64,000 nt of DNA from Lysobacterales bacterium (lineage in GTDB: Bacteria > Pseudomonadota > Gammaproteobacteria > Xanthomonadales > SZUA-36), in contig JABDJL010000023.1 in the NCBI GenBank assembly GCA_013002505.1, positions 1-64,000 on the forward strand, read 5' to 3'. The first letter of the stretch is position 1. Each line of letters starts with the position of its first letter. The position numbers and the translations under genes were made by a program. Below the pieces are notes generated by a model that saw only the letters and a program-made list of their open reading frames with translations, made no database searches and was not told the origin of the DNA. Positions 24,737-29,803 of the stretch are shown in pieces.

Positions 24737-25063
24737 ATGGCGTTGTTCTTTGAACTGCTGGTCGGTCATGTATTGGCTGATTACGTGTTTCAGCGCCAGG
24801 TCATGGCGACCTCCAAGAGCCGCCACGCCGAAATATTCAAGACCGCCGGGCCACGATTTCCACCCTGGTATTACTGGCTGGCTTCACATGCGCTGGTGCA
24901 CGGCGGGGCCGTCTACCTGATTACCGGCAGCCTGATGTTCGGCCTCATAGAAACTGTTCTGCATGGCCTGATTGACCATGCCAAGTGTGAACACAAGATC
25001 GGCGTTCACACCGACCAGGGCCTGCACATCCTGTGCAAGCTTGCATATGTTTATTTCATATAG
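24737..25063 (+). CDS. DUF3307 family membrane protein
   Basis: 108 residues with three hydrophobic segments. HVLADYVFQRQVMATSKS at residues 10-27 and the closing ETVLHGLIDHAKCEHKIGVH with its spaced histidines and aspartate are DUF3307 signatures. The family is of unknown function; the polar His/Asp residues within membrane segments suggest a metal-dependent membrane enzyme, but this is speculation. It starts at ATG 24737 and ends 77 bases before the cyclase gene on the same strand, so it may be the first gene of that operon. Confidence 0.75.
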   Translation: MALFFELLVGHVLADYVFQRQVMATSKSRHAEIFKTAGPRFPPWYYWLASHALVHGGAVYLITGSLMFGLIETVLHGLIDHAKCEHKIGVHTDQGLHILCKLAYVYFI

Positions 25064-25140: not shown

Positions 25141-27078
25141 ATGGTCAGTGCGCGGCTGGATATCCTGCGGCAGGAATTGCTGGCGCCGATCCTTTCGATA
25201 GAAGGGTATACCGAACTGTTGCGCGGCAGCCTCAAGGACGAGGATTTTCTCAGCGACCTGGAGAAGATCGAAAAGGCGTCTATCCAGACTCGCGGCCTGG
25301 TTTATGAAATGCTCGAAGCCGAATCATCGGAGCGCAGCGAGGAAGACCGGGATTCACAGCGTTCCAAGTACAAGCACGACCTGCGCAACTCGGTCGGCGC
25401 CATTGCCGGCTATTCTGAAATCATTCTCGAAGACATGGAGGACGATGGCGCGGGCGAGGGCGAGGACCACGAGTACCTGAATCACCTGGTCGGTGAAGCC
25501 AACAAGCTGCTCGACATGCTCGAAACCCTGTTCCAGTCCGACGATATTTTCAGCGAAGCGGCCGGTGAATCGCTGAATGTCGACATCCATTCAATATTCG
25601 ATTCCTTTGAAAAGGCCGAAGTGGAAGGTGTCGAGGTCATTACCGGCCATATCCTGATCGTTGATGACAATGAAAGCGTACGCAATATCCTGGCCCACAA
25701 GTTGAAGAAACAGGGCCACACGATTCGCATGGGCGGTTCCGGCCGCGAAGCCCTGAACCTGATCCGGGAACAGGTGCCGGACATCCTGCTGCTCGACCTG
25801 TTCATGTACGACATGAATGGCTTCGAAGTGCTCAAGGAGATGCACAAGGATGAAGACCTGCGCTCGATCCCGGTCATCATCATTACCGGGCTCAAGGACA
25901 AGAATGCAGCAGTTCGCTGCATCGAGGCCGGTGCCTTTGACATTCTGACCAAGCCGGTCAACCCGGCATTGCTCGATGCGCGCGTCACTGCCTGCCTGGA
26001 GAAGAAAGCCTGGCGCGACAAGGAACAGGAGTACCAGCGCGAGCTGGAGAAGAGTTTTGCCCTGATTCGCCAGGTTTTTGGCCGTTACATGTCCGACGAG
26101 GTCGTCAAGGAGATCCTGGAAGCAGACGATGGCATGGCGCTGGGTGGGGCCAAGCAGCAGATCACCATCATGATGACCGACATACGCGGATTCTCGATGC
26201 TGAGCCAGGAGCTGGATGCGGAAGATTGCGTCAGCCTGCTGAACAACTATTTCGGCACCATGACCCCGCTGATCCAGAAATACGGCGGCGTCATCAACGA
26301 ATTCCTCGGCGACGCGATCCTGGCCATTTTCGGCGCGCCCGTGGCTATCGAAGACCACGCGCCCAAGGCCCTGGCCTGCGCACTCGAAATGCAAAATGGT
26401 ATGAACGATGTCAACCAGCGAAACCGTGAAATGGGTTTGCCGGAGGTCGAGATGGGTATCGCGCTTAATACCGGCGAGGTCGTGGTGGGCAATATCGGCT
26501 CTGAACGCCGCCAGAAGTACGGTGTCGTCGGGCACCACGTGAACCTCACGGCGCGCATCGAGTCGTTCACGATTGGCCGGCAGGTCATGATTTCACAGTA
26601 CACGATGGAAGCGATCGAAACGGCAGTAAAGGTGGCGCAGACACTGGAAGTGGAAGCCAAGGGCATACGCAACCCCGTCAAGATTTACGAAGTGGTGGGT
26701 ATCGGTGAGCCGTTCAACGTTTCGCTGGTGCGCAAAGAAGTGACGCTGTTGCCGCTGGCCGAACCATTGCTAATGCATATGCGGACCCTGACCGGCAAAG
26801 CCGTTGCCGACGAAACGATACATGCACACATCATCGAGGCCGGCGGTCGGGCAGCGATCATGCAATGCGGCACTGAACTCGAGAAACTGACCAACCTGCG
26901 CGTCACGATTCCCAGTTTCCCCCAATCGCTTGATGAGCAACTGTTTGCAAAAGTCATGAAGTTGATTGACCGGCAAGACGATCGTTATATTTACCGTATT
27001 CAGATCACGTCGGCCGCCCAGGCCGCACGTGACTTTATTCTCTCCCAGGTTGTGGAACCGTCTGCAACTTCAGACTGA
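25141..27078 (+). CDS. response-regulator class III nucleotidyl cyclase, predicted guanylate type
   Basis: 645 residues from the ATG at 25141; GTG 25102 is an in-frame alternative. Order: a phosphotransfer-like helical region with KHDLRNS (His79) and no ATPase domain; a receiver domain (about 168-280) with HILIVDDNE and phosphoacceptor Asp219 in LLLDLFMYD; a class III cyclase domain (about 335-500); and a C-terminal PilZ-like barrel. The cyclase has both metal aspartates (Asp347 in MTDIRGF, Asp391 in LGDAIL) and the catalytic Asn468/Arg472 in VNLTAR. The purine-selecting positions are Glu387 (INEFLG) and Gly461 (KYGVVG), where adenylate cyclases have Lys and Asp/Thr. Glu at that place is the guanylate-cyclase pattern. 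Probably controlled by the downstream kinase. Confidence 0.85.
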   Translation: MVSARLDILRQELLAPILSIEGYTELLRGSLKDEDFLSDLEKIEKASIQTRGLVYEMLEAESSERSEEDRDSQRSKYKHDLRNSVGAIAGYSEIILEDMEDDGAGEGEDHEYLNHLVGEANKLLDMLETLFQSDDIFSEAAGESLNVDIHSIFDSFEKAEVEGVEVITGHILIVDDNESVRNILAHKLKKQGHTIRMGGSGREALNLIREQVPDILLLDLFMYDMNGFEVLKEMHKDEDLRSIPVIIITGLKDKNAAVRCIEAGAFDILTKPVNPALLDARVTACLEKKAWRDKEQEYQRELEKSFALIRQVFGRYMSDEVVKEILEADDGMALGGAKQQITIMMTDIRGFSMLSQELDAEDCVSLLNNYFGTMTPLIQKYGGVINEFLGDAILAIFGAPVAIEDHAPKALACALEMQNGMNDVNQRNREMGLPEVEMGIALNTGEVVVGNIGSERRQKYGVVGHHVNLTARIESFTIGRQVMISQYTMEAIETAVKVAQTLEVEAKGIRNPVKIYEVVGIGEPFNVSLVRKEVTLLPLAEPLLMHMRTLTGKAVADETIHAHIIEAGGRAAIMQCGTELEKLTNLRVTIPSFPQSLDEQLFAKVMKLIDRQDDRYIYRIQITSAAQAARDFILSQVVEPSATSD

Positions 27079-27089
27079 CGAGGTGAAAA

Positions 27090-27449
27090 GTGCCAAGTAT
27101 ATTGATTGTTGAAGACAACGAAATGAATCGCGACATGCTCAGCAGGCGGTTAAAGCGAAAGGGTTTCGACATTTCTGTAGCGGTTGACGGACAGCAGGGT
27201 GTCGTCATGGCATCCCATTCCAAGCCTGACCTGATCCTGATGGACATGAGCCTGCCCATCAAGGACGGCTGGACGGCGACCAGGGAGCTGAAGGAAAAGG
27301 CTGGTACCAGGGATATCAAGATTATTGCACTGACCGCGCACGCAATGGAAGGAGACCGCCAGCGCGCGTTGGGCGCCGGTTGCGACGACTACGACACCAA
27401 GCCGATTGATCTCAAGCGCCTGCTTGGGAAAATTGAAGCGCTGCTTTAA
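27090..27449 (+). CDS. single-domain response regulator (CheY-like)
   Basis: 119 residues, GTG start at 27090 behind GAGGTG. Only a receiver domain: acidic pair Glu-Asp at positions 8-9 (ILIVEDNE), phosphoacceptor Asp52 in LILMDMSLP, Thr in IIALTAHA, Lys in YDTKPID. No output domain, so it likely relays phosphate or acts through protein contacts. It lies 11 bases after the cyclase gene and 62 bases before the hybrid kinase, forming a three-gene signalling operon. Partner specificity is inferred from gene order. Confidence 0.9.
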   Translation: MPSILIVEDNEMNRDMLSRRLKRKGFDISVAVDGQQGVVMASHSKPDLILMDMSLPIKDGWTATRELKEKAGTRDIKIIALTAHAMEGDRQRALGAGCDDYDTKPIDLKRLLGKIEALL

Positions 27450-27511: not shown

Positions 27512-29803
27512 ATGAACCTGAGTAAACGAATTGCCCTTTCGTCGTCCGTCATCCTGCTCTTTTTCCTTGGCACCATCCTGGTGTTTCTGTGGGCCAATGA
27601 CGCACGCCGACAAACCATCGACGAGCTTCAGGCGACGATACGTTCGCAATACCTGATCAGCGACGTATCGGGCGAACTGGCTGAATTCAACAAGCGCCTG
27701 CTGGTGCTCGAGGCGTTCGCCTCGGCAGCGGGAACCGCAGGGCTGAATGACGAGGAACGCAATAATCTGTTGGTCAGTATTTCGGCCATCGACGACGCGC
27801 TGGCACATGTCCAGGCCACCGCAGAAGGTTCCATTGCCAGCCAGTTGAAGGGCAGCCGCGGGGCTGCAGCGATCATCATGGAATGGAAAGAGCTGATCAA
27901 CTGGACCATCGAGAACAATGAAAAGGTGAGGGTGGAAACCCTGACCGATTTTGCCGCTGAATTCGAGGAAACCCAGGCACAACTGAATACCGACAGCAAC
28001 CTGCTGCGCCAGCGCGCCCAGCAGCTGAATGAAGAAATCGAAGAGGTCGAGACGCTGATCAACGAGGTCTCGCTGATCGTGTTCGCGGTGTCAGTGGTCA
28101 TCGCGCTGATCCTGACCATTAACCTGATCCGGTTCACCAAGCGTTCGCTGAACCGCTTACGTGAGGGAACCCACCAGTGGAGCGAAGGCAACATGTCGCA
28201 CCGCATCCAGGTGACTGGCAAAGATGATCTTTCCCAGTTGGCCAGGGCCTTTAACGGCATGGCCAACAAGATTGACTCGGCGATGCAGGAACTCCAGGAA
28301 GAGCGCAAGCGGGCCAACGCGGCCAACAAGGCCAAGAGCGGATTCCTGGCCAACATGAGCCATGAATTGCGAACACCAATGAATGCCATTATCGGCTACA
28401 GCGAAATGCTGCTGGAGGAAATCGAGGATGAGGGCTCGCTGAGCGCCGAGGACGCCCAGGCCGACCTTGCAAAGATCCAGTCCGCGGGCCGGCATCTGCT
28501 CGAATTGATCAACGAGATCCTGGATCTTTCAAAGATCGAGTCCGGCAAGATGGGTGTCTATTACGAGGAAGTCGATGTCGTACGGCTGATCAAGGACGTC
28601 GGAACCACGGTGATGCCACTGATCGACAAGTTTGACAATGCGCTCGACCTGCGAATTGACCTCAAGGATTCAAAGATCGAAACCGACGTGACCAAGTTCC
28701 GCCAGGTCATGATGAACCTGCTTAGCAATTCGGCGAAGTTTACCAAGGAAGGCATGATTACCATCAAGGCTGAACGAAGGGTCGAAAAGGGCACCGAAAT
28801 GATCTCTGTGGCCGTCAAGGACACCGGTATCGGCATGTCGCCTGCACAACTGCGCAAGGTTTTCGACGAGTTCACCCAGGCCGATGAATCAACCACGCGC
28901 CAGTTCGGGGGTACCGGCCTTGGGCTGGCAATTTGCAGGCGCTTTGCGGAGCTGATGCACGGTCGAATCGATGTCGAGAGCACGCCCGGAAAGGGCACCA
29001 CGTTCACGCTGGTAGTACCGACCAAGAAGCCTGCAGAAACCACCAGGAAAGCGGCTCCGGTTGCTGATGAGCCGATCGACAAGTCAATCGAAGTCAGCGG
29101 CCTGGCGACGATACTGGTGATAGACGATGACACCACGTCACTGGACCTCACCGAGCGAATTCTCAAGAAACGCGGTTACTCGGTCATCAAGGCGACCAGT
29201 GGCCCGAAAGGTATCGAGCTGGCTTCGAAGAAGAAGCCGGACCTCGTGGTCCTGGATGTCATCATGCCAGGCATGGATGGCTGGCAGGTTCTGGACCAGC
29301 TCAAGGCAAGCGAGGTCACGAAGTCAATCCCGATCGTAATGCAGTCCATGCTCAGCGAACGCGAGCTCGGGCTGGCCAAGGGTGCTGATGACTACCTGAC
29401 CAAGCCTATCGACAAGGCCAAGTTGACCGGGGCTATCCACCAGTTGCTGCCCGGGGTCAATACTGACAAGGGCCTGTTGATTGTAGAACAGGGTAATGGC
29501 GTACTGGACCTGGTTTCGGAACACGCCAAAAAAGAAAAATGGGAAGTCAGGCACACCGAGGATCTTGACGAGGCGGAACGCTGGCTGTCCGAGCGTGAAT
29601 TTGGCATCGTGCTGTTGGGGCGCCACGAGAATACCGACCGCATGGCCGAGTTGATGGACAAGGTGTCAAGCCGGCCGGCAGATCACAGGACGCCCATGTT
29701 GCTGCTCAATTCGATCGAAGAAAAAGACAATAACCCCGCGCAGCTGCTCAGCTACCTGAACGTGGTCCACAAGTCCCGCGAGGAACCACCTGACGATTCG
29801 TAA
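27512..29803 (+). CDS. hybrid sensor histidine kinase with two receiver-like domains
   Basis: 763 residues. Membrane helices at about 8-28 and 185-207 bracket a helical periplasmic sensor, followed by HAMP (about 205-260), a HisKA domain with the phospho-accepting His284 in [18 protein letters not shown], and an HATPase with [16 protein letters not shown] and GGTGLGLA. A receiver follows ([15 protein letters not shown], Asp in [13 protein letters not shown]). The last 110 residues (from [15 protein letters not shown]) have the receiver fold pattern but lack the aspartate cluster, so this second receiver is degenerate. Likely the kinase for the cyclase and single-domain regulator directly upstream. 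Confidence 0.92.

Follow-up and report, generated by a model that had tools for sequence, protein, structure and literature searches.

The locus described here raises the question of which nucleotide is cyclized by a class III cyclase that carries its own receiver domain, and of how such an enzyme is switched. Its gene occupies positions 25141–27078 of the forward strand in a 64,000-nucleotide stretch of DNA from a Lysobacterales bacterium (contig JABDJL010000023.1), and this whole stretch is referred to below as the window. Few bacterial guanylate cyclases have been characterized; those named in the literature that we found are Cya2, XC_0250 and the enzyme of Rhodospirillum centenum. The best explanation, to which we give a probability of roughly 0.6, is that the gene product is a soluble class III cyclase of the Cya2 type, that it most likely forms cyclic GMP from GTP, and that a phosphorelay starting at the hybrid kinase encoded two genes downstream would switch it. 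The cyclase probably makes cyclic GMP because both its active-site residues and its closest solved relative point that way. Sequence comparison and a structural model gave the domain order, the intact catalytic and receiver residues, the Glu/Gly pair, the placement in the clade of Cya2, the predicted PilZ fold of the C-terminus and the conservation of the gene cassette.

The open reading frame, Pfam matches and the model together predict a guanylate-type class III cyclase of 645 amino acids, in which two HisKA-like hairpins are followed by a receiver domain, a cyclase transducer element, the cyclase domain and a PilZ-like tail. The AlphaFold model has a mean pLDDT of 87.5. The start codon (ATG at 25141) was placed solely by the point at which similarity to the relatives begins, and an in-frame GTG lies upstream at 25033. 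Residues 1–65 (25141–25335) form a degenerate DHp-like helical hairpin, recognized by sequence comparison and by the model (helices 2–30 and 34–62), in which Gln11 occupies the site expected for the phospho-acceptor His. The second DHp-like hairpin (about residues 66–137; 25336–25551) has kept this residue as His79 in the motif HDLRN. Pfam HisKA matches two stretches of the protein, best at residues 78–131, and no HATPase match was found over the whole protein, so that His79 lies on a helical hairpin of the HPt-like DHp kind without an ATPase domain. The HDxRN box was found in all 10 orthologous loci of the window's lineage. The receiver domain (residues 171–282; 25651–25986; PF00072, E = 7e-27) has its phospho-acceptor at Asp219, and its key residues, D175, D176, D219, T249 and K271, are intact. 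The transducer element (26059–26103) contains the FGRY motif at residues 313–316, as described in PMC5995499. The catalytic domain comprises residues 338–517 (26152–26691; PF00211, E = 6e-28). A sequence-only reading of the window had noted the receiver and a kinase-like His box without ATPase; both are present, the box being one of two such hairpins and the only one with its His.

The catalytic residues are complete, as that reading had stated: the metal-binding Asp347 and Asp391 and the transition-state Asn468 and Arg472 are all present. At the base-selecting positions are Glu387 (26299–26301, in INEFLGD) and Gly461 (26521–26523, in KYGVVG), and the structural alignment that the reading had proposed as a check placed them exactly where expected, on the Glu and Gly of Cya2 in 2w01. 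The nearest PDB chains are 6fht, a Cya2 chimera (E = 1e-68), and 2w01, Cya2 itself (E = 1e-61); the adenylyl cyclase CyaB (3r5g) follows with E = 5e-34. The model superposes on 2w01 at 1.0–1.7 Å, with 51–52% identity and a target TM of 0.96–0.97. In the column of Glu387, which is equivalent to E488 of Cya2, 2w01 reads IDEFMGD and 6fht IDKFMGD, and the two chains differ exactly there; according to PMC5995499, 6fht is Cya2 with E488K, engineered for the use of ATP, and this change turns substrate use from GTP to ATP. Because 2w01 and 6fht differ at this column and the model superposes on 2w01, the position of Glu387 is secure. Cya2 does carry the Glu/Gly pair (PMC4215837), as that reading had stated, and since the same pair stands at the aligned positions of the window enzyme, the prediction of guanylate-type specificity is well founded.

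This prediction calls for qualification. The third determinant of Cya2, a Tyr three residues after the transition-state Asn, is replaced by Ala471. This Tyr was found in only nine of 80 loci, in a small, mainly cyanobacterial sub-branch, and thus marks the sub-branch of Cya2 and not the wider clade. It is important for the turnover of GTP in Cya2 (PMC4215837), so with Ala471 in its place a preference for GTP is likely but unproven. The adenylyl cyclase Ma1120 has Ala at the place of this Tyr, and its K101E/D157G mutant, in which the set of Glu, Gly and Ala is identical to that of the window, gains GTP activity (414–518% over the wild type) and loses 53–84% of its ATP activity, keeping a measurable remainder (PMC4215837). 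Because of Ala471 and of the ATP activity retained by these mutants, the substrate is left unsettled by the residues. The GTP preference of Cya2, moreover, lies in turnover, as its affinity for both nucleotides is equal (PMC4284465, PMC4215837), and for this reason the residues indicate a preference, not exclusivity. Weighing these points, we estimate at about two in three that the window cyclase would prefer GTP.

The same observations give some weight to a rather unlikely alternative, namely that the protein is an adenylate or promiscuous purine cyclase with ATP as the main or an equal substrate in the cell, despite Glu387 and Gly461. The loss of only part of the ATP activity in Ma1120, the equal affinities in Cya2 and the Ala at 471 all fit it, as do the CRP-like proteins encoded in the genome. 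Furthermore, no class III cyclase besides the Glu-type enzyme was detected in seven of the 11 carrier genomes (the bins being incomplete), and this enzyme could be the source of cyclic AMP there if no other class of adenylate cyclase exists. Against this alternative stand the effect of Lys at the first position, which makes Cya2 an adenylyl cyclase (PMC5995499), the near-invariance of Glu at this position across the clade, and the separate branches on which the sampled Lys/Thr cyclases of the same order fall.

Glu occupies the first position in all 13 aligned relatives of the same order as well as in Cya2, and one further, distant relative of the order (L017) has Glu/Thr. At the second position, the window's family, L038 and the short forms L044–L046 have Gly, and the other members of a second family have Ala. 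Among 80 loci from named genomes, Glu was found in 79 and Gly in 71; the set was recruited by two DNA patterns, one of which demands Glu, so the Glu count is biased. In a profile search that made no such demand, 27 of the 30 best loci retrieved from the phylum had Glu, and the profile scores listed separated into one group above about 258 bits and another below about 218 bits. The Glu pattern is accordingly not a product of chance. A genome scan with the window protein alone gave no match, and a scan based on an alignment yielded at least 544 confirmed candidates, so that the window protein is one of hundreds, at least, of relatives of the Cya2 catalytic domain. The 80 loci examined span at least 13 named phyla. 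In a tree computed without the two base-selecting columns and the column of the Cya2 Tyr, all Glu-type rows including Cya2 formed one group (support 94) with the Lys/Thr rows outside it, although the tree is a quick one with some long branches. The other class III cyclase detected in the window genome (L002) is of the Lys/Thr type and closest to CyaB, and provides an internal contrast. A search of plasmids gave just distant cyclases, below 40% identity, among the matches listed. According to the sequence-only reading, cyclic GMP signaling is rare in bacteria; this may not hold, because a large clade, with members in at least 13 named phyla, shares the Glu/Gly pair. In the literature found, Cya2 is the sole member of the clade that was tested, and no assay was found for the window protein or any close relative.

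Two kinds of variant were seen. A clade member of Desulfococcaceae HSG9 (L139) has Ala/Asp at the base-selecting positions, which may reflect a switch of substrate within the clade. In other genomes of the order, the shorter Glu/Gly REC-cyclases L044, L045 and L046 lack the HisKA and the PilZ-like tail and are transcribed divergently from a hybrid kinase.

The C-terminal tail (26752–27048), which had been called PilZ-like, is placed in the PilZ fold by modeling. A tail of about 95–130 residues follows the cyclase domain in nearly all relatives, and about 110 residues of it could be aligned across 71 of them; a model built from these 71 tails (pLDDT 87.7) has a six-stranded barrel and a final helix, and in a Foldseek comparison with the PDB the top 23 matches were all PilZ domains or PilZ-bearing proteins. 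Lys553 (window numbering) is invariant in all 71 aligned tails. These findings might suggest that the domain is a sensor of c-di-GMP and that the protein integrates c-di-GMP with the phosphorelay, since many of the 23 matches were solved with c-di-GMP and Pfam PilZ recognizes 21 of the 71 tails (best E = 8e-7). We regard such a role as improbable: of the c-di-GMP motifs, RxxxR occurs in seven of the 71 tails and [DN]xSxxG in two, never both in the same tail, and the window's own tail has neither motif and no Pfam match. Moreover, the Cya2 extension supports activity, and in the available part of PMC5995499 no added c-di-GMP is reported.

That extension comprises 118 residues and is structurally uncharacterized, and its removal left very low activity (PMC5995499). 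The PilZ-fold tail matches it in place and length, and the Cya2-like CHASE2 cyclases L117, L131 and L159 show the tail in the alignment. We infer that the Cya2 extension is a PilZ-fold domain of the same kind, a comparison made through cyanobacterial Cya2-like relatives and not with the tail of Cya2 itself. By analogy, the tail would stabilize or stimulate the active dimer rather than sense c-di-GMP. A literature search, with most subscription journals outside its scope, found no earlier description of PilZ-tailed guanylate cyclases.

The cyclase gene was thought to share an operon with a hybrid kinase, and the order found agrees: the cyclase is followed after 11 bp by a stand-alone CheY-like receiver (27090–27449, forward strand) and, after a further 62 bp, by a hybrid kinase with HAMP, HisKA, HATPase and REC domains (27512–29803, forward strand) and two membrane segments predicted by eye. 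The two genes were identified by Pfam, the receiver also by its conservation beside the cyclase and the kinase by its orthologues. Upstream lies a DUF3307 gene (Pfam; 24737–25063, forward strand), which directly precedes the cyclase in the four nearest relatives as well. The order of cyclase, single receiver and hybrid kinase is kept in 10 orthologous loci belonging to two families of the order; at one locus (L043) the contig ends within the kinase gene. In Acidobacteriota (L094, L140), Nitrospirota (L104) and Myxococcota (L103) the cassette is rearranged: receiver genes adjoin genes for HisKA-REC-cyclases, in which the HisKA has kept its His and lacks HATPase, and a kinase is nearby in L103 and L140.

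No Hpt domain was found in the window's hybrid kinase or in two of its orthologues, and the ATPase-less HisKA of the cyclase is therefore the obvious candidate for the phosphotransfer step; judging from sequence, it may supply what these kinases lack. The hybrid kinase would autophosphorylate and pass the phosphate to its own receiver, from which His79 of the cyclase would relay it onward to Asp219 of the cyclase receiver or to the free receiver, the latter perhaps acting as a competing sink or as a carrier. Phosphorylation of the cyclase receiver would then rearrange the helical FGRY transducer and the cyclase dimer. Spo0B and ChpT are ATPase-less phosphotransferases that likewise consist of a DHp-like helical hairpin with a His and no working kinase. 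The window hairpin differs from theirs in being fused to a receiver and a cyclase and in being preceded by a second hairpin without the His.

No cyclic GMP receptor or phosphodiesterase was identified in the window genome. The genome encodes five cNMP-binding domains, none of them near the cassette. On one contig (C126; L078:776-2073), a CRP-like regulator and a stand-alone cNMP-binding domain are encoded in tandem, and in the regulator the canonical phosphate-binding residues and a Leu at the place of Thr127 of E. coli CRP were recognized by eye; the two products are possible cyclic nucleotide receptors. Another contig (C93; L080:1420-2214) encodes two small proteins in tandem that each consist of a single cNMP-binding domain, and L082 encodes an FNR-like protein with such a domain. 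The CRP-like proteins are possible receptors, with no link to cyclic GMP over cyclic AMP. In a Nitrospirota metagenome-assembled genome (L104:4945-7800), a HisKA-REC-cyclase of the clade is fused at its C-terminus to an Apyc1-type metallo-beta-lactamase domain (PF23023, E = 1e-24), and this chain combines a cyclase with a likely phosphodiesterase of cyclic nucleotides. A search of the 11 carrier genomes for an Apyc1-type phosphodiesterase as degrading partner gave no match above the cut-off.

On the opposite strand, 552 bp from the cyclase, lies a gene of the PycTM family of Pycsar effectors (PF18967; 23945–24589, reverse strand), the sole copy in the window genome. It might accordingly be supposed that the cyclase belongs to a Pycsar-like defense in which cUMP, cCMP or another cyclic nucleotide activates this PycTM. 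The protein is a clear member of its family, PADLOC models of PycC match the catalytic domain, and a PycTM gene would fall this close to either of the two cyclases by chance with a probability of roughly 0.2%, a figure not corrected for the many other coincidences that might have caught attention. The pairing, however, is not conserved: neither 14 order-level loci nor the 80 loci from named genomes (six being from the same genomes) have a PycTM near the cyclase, no cyclase lies within the 1.5 kb flanks of 30 PycTM loci of the order, and of 300 genomes of the order 72 carry PycTM, the ten nearest cyclase carriers not being among them. PycC selects pyrimidines through an aromatic residue, which precedes the first metal Asp by two positions, and through Arg, Lys or Asp at a second site (PMC11224242); at these two sites the window has Met345 and, by our own alignment, Glu387. 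The two genes also stand on opposite strands with the DUF3307 gene in between. As there is neither a conserved pairing nor the set of residues that selects pyrimidines, a Pycsar system was rejected as very improbable, and the proximity is treated as coincidence or a lineage-specific arrangement. The likeness to Pycsar (PMC11224242) is limited to the class III fold and, in the window genome alone, the nearby PycTM.

Most likely, then, the gene product is a guanylate cyclase of the Cya2 clade that is controlled by a phosphorelay and has a new input architecture. Beyond what had been read from the window at first, the analysis found the conservation of the cassette, the clade-wide PilZ-like domain and the neighboring PycTM gene. 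Because the clade is widespread and has hardly been assayed, cyclic GMP signaling may be commoner in bacteria than thought; if a non-cyanobacterial member makes cyclic GMP, the scarcity of such signaling becomes a question of what was assayed. A broader proposal, for which the odds seem somewhat short of even, is that the Glu/Gly PilZ-tailed cyclases are the principal clade of bacterial guanylate cyclases, in at least 13 phyla, and that in some of them a fused, ATPase-less HisKA acts as a built-in phosphotransferase and so connects the enzyme to two-component systems. If so, cyclic GMP would be a common bacterial messenger and not a rarity. The conserved cassette of kinase, receiver and cyclase offers an input pathway that is ready to be tested, and the clade-wide PilZ-fold tail suggests what structure the Cya2 extension, needed for strong activity, may have.

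Among known systems, Cya2 of Synechocystis (2w01) is the most similar: its catalytic domain is about 52% identical, the Glu/Gly pair, the metal and transition-state residues and FGRY are shared, and both proteins have a C-terminal extension of about 110–118 residues; that of the Cya2-like cyanobacterial relatives can be aligned to the PilZ-fold tail. Cya2 is a membrane-bound protein with CHASE2. The window cyclase, a soluble one, carries two HisKA-like hairpins and a receiver and has Ala in place of the Cya2 Tyr. Adenylyl cyclases of the CyaB type (3r5g) have the same fold, with 34% identity in the structural match, but carry Lys/Thr at the base-selecting positions, and the window genome encodes its own CyaB-like paralogue. 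Bacterial cyclic GMP signaling is also represented by XC_0250 of Xanthomonas (PMC3770947) and by R. centenum (PMC4681086). XC_0250, a guanylate cyclase with a link to a cNMP-binding diguanylate cyclase, lacks the usual transition-state Asn and Arg (PMC3770947), so that not every bacterial guanylate cyclase is defined by the usual residues. In R. centenum, gcyB-gcyC adjoin the CRP-like cgrA (PMC4681086), whereas the cyclase of the window adjoins a receiver and a hybrid kinase.
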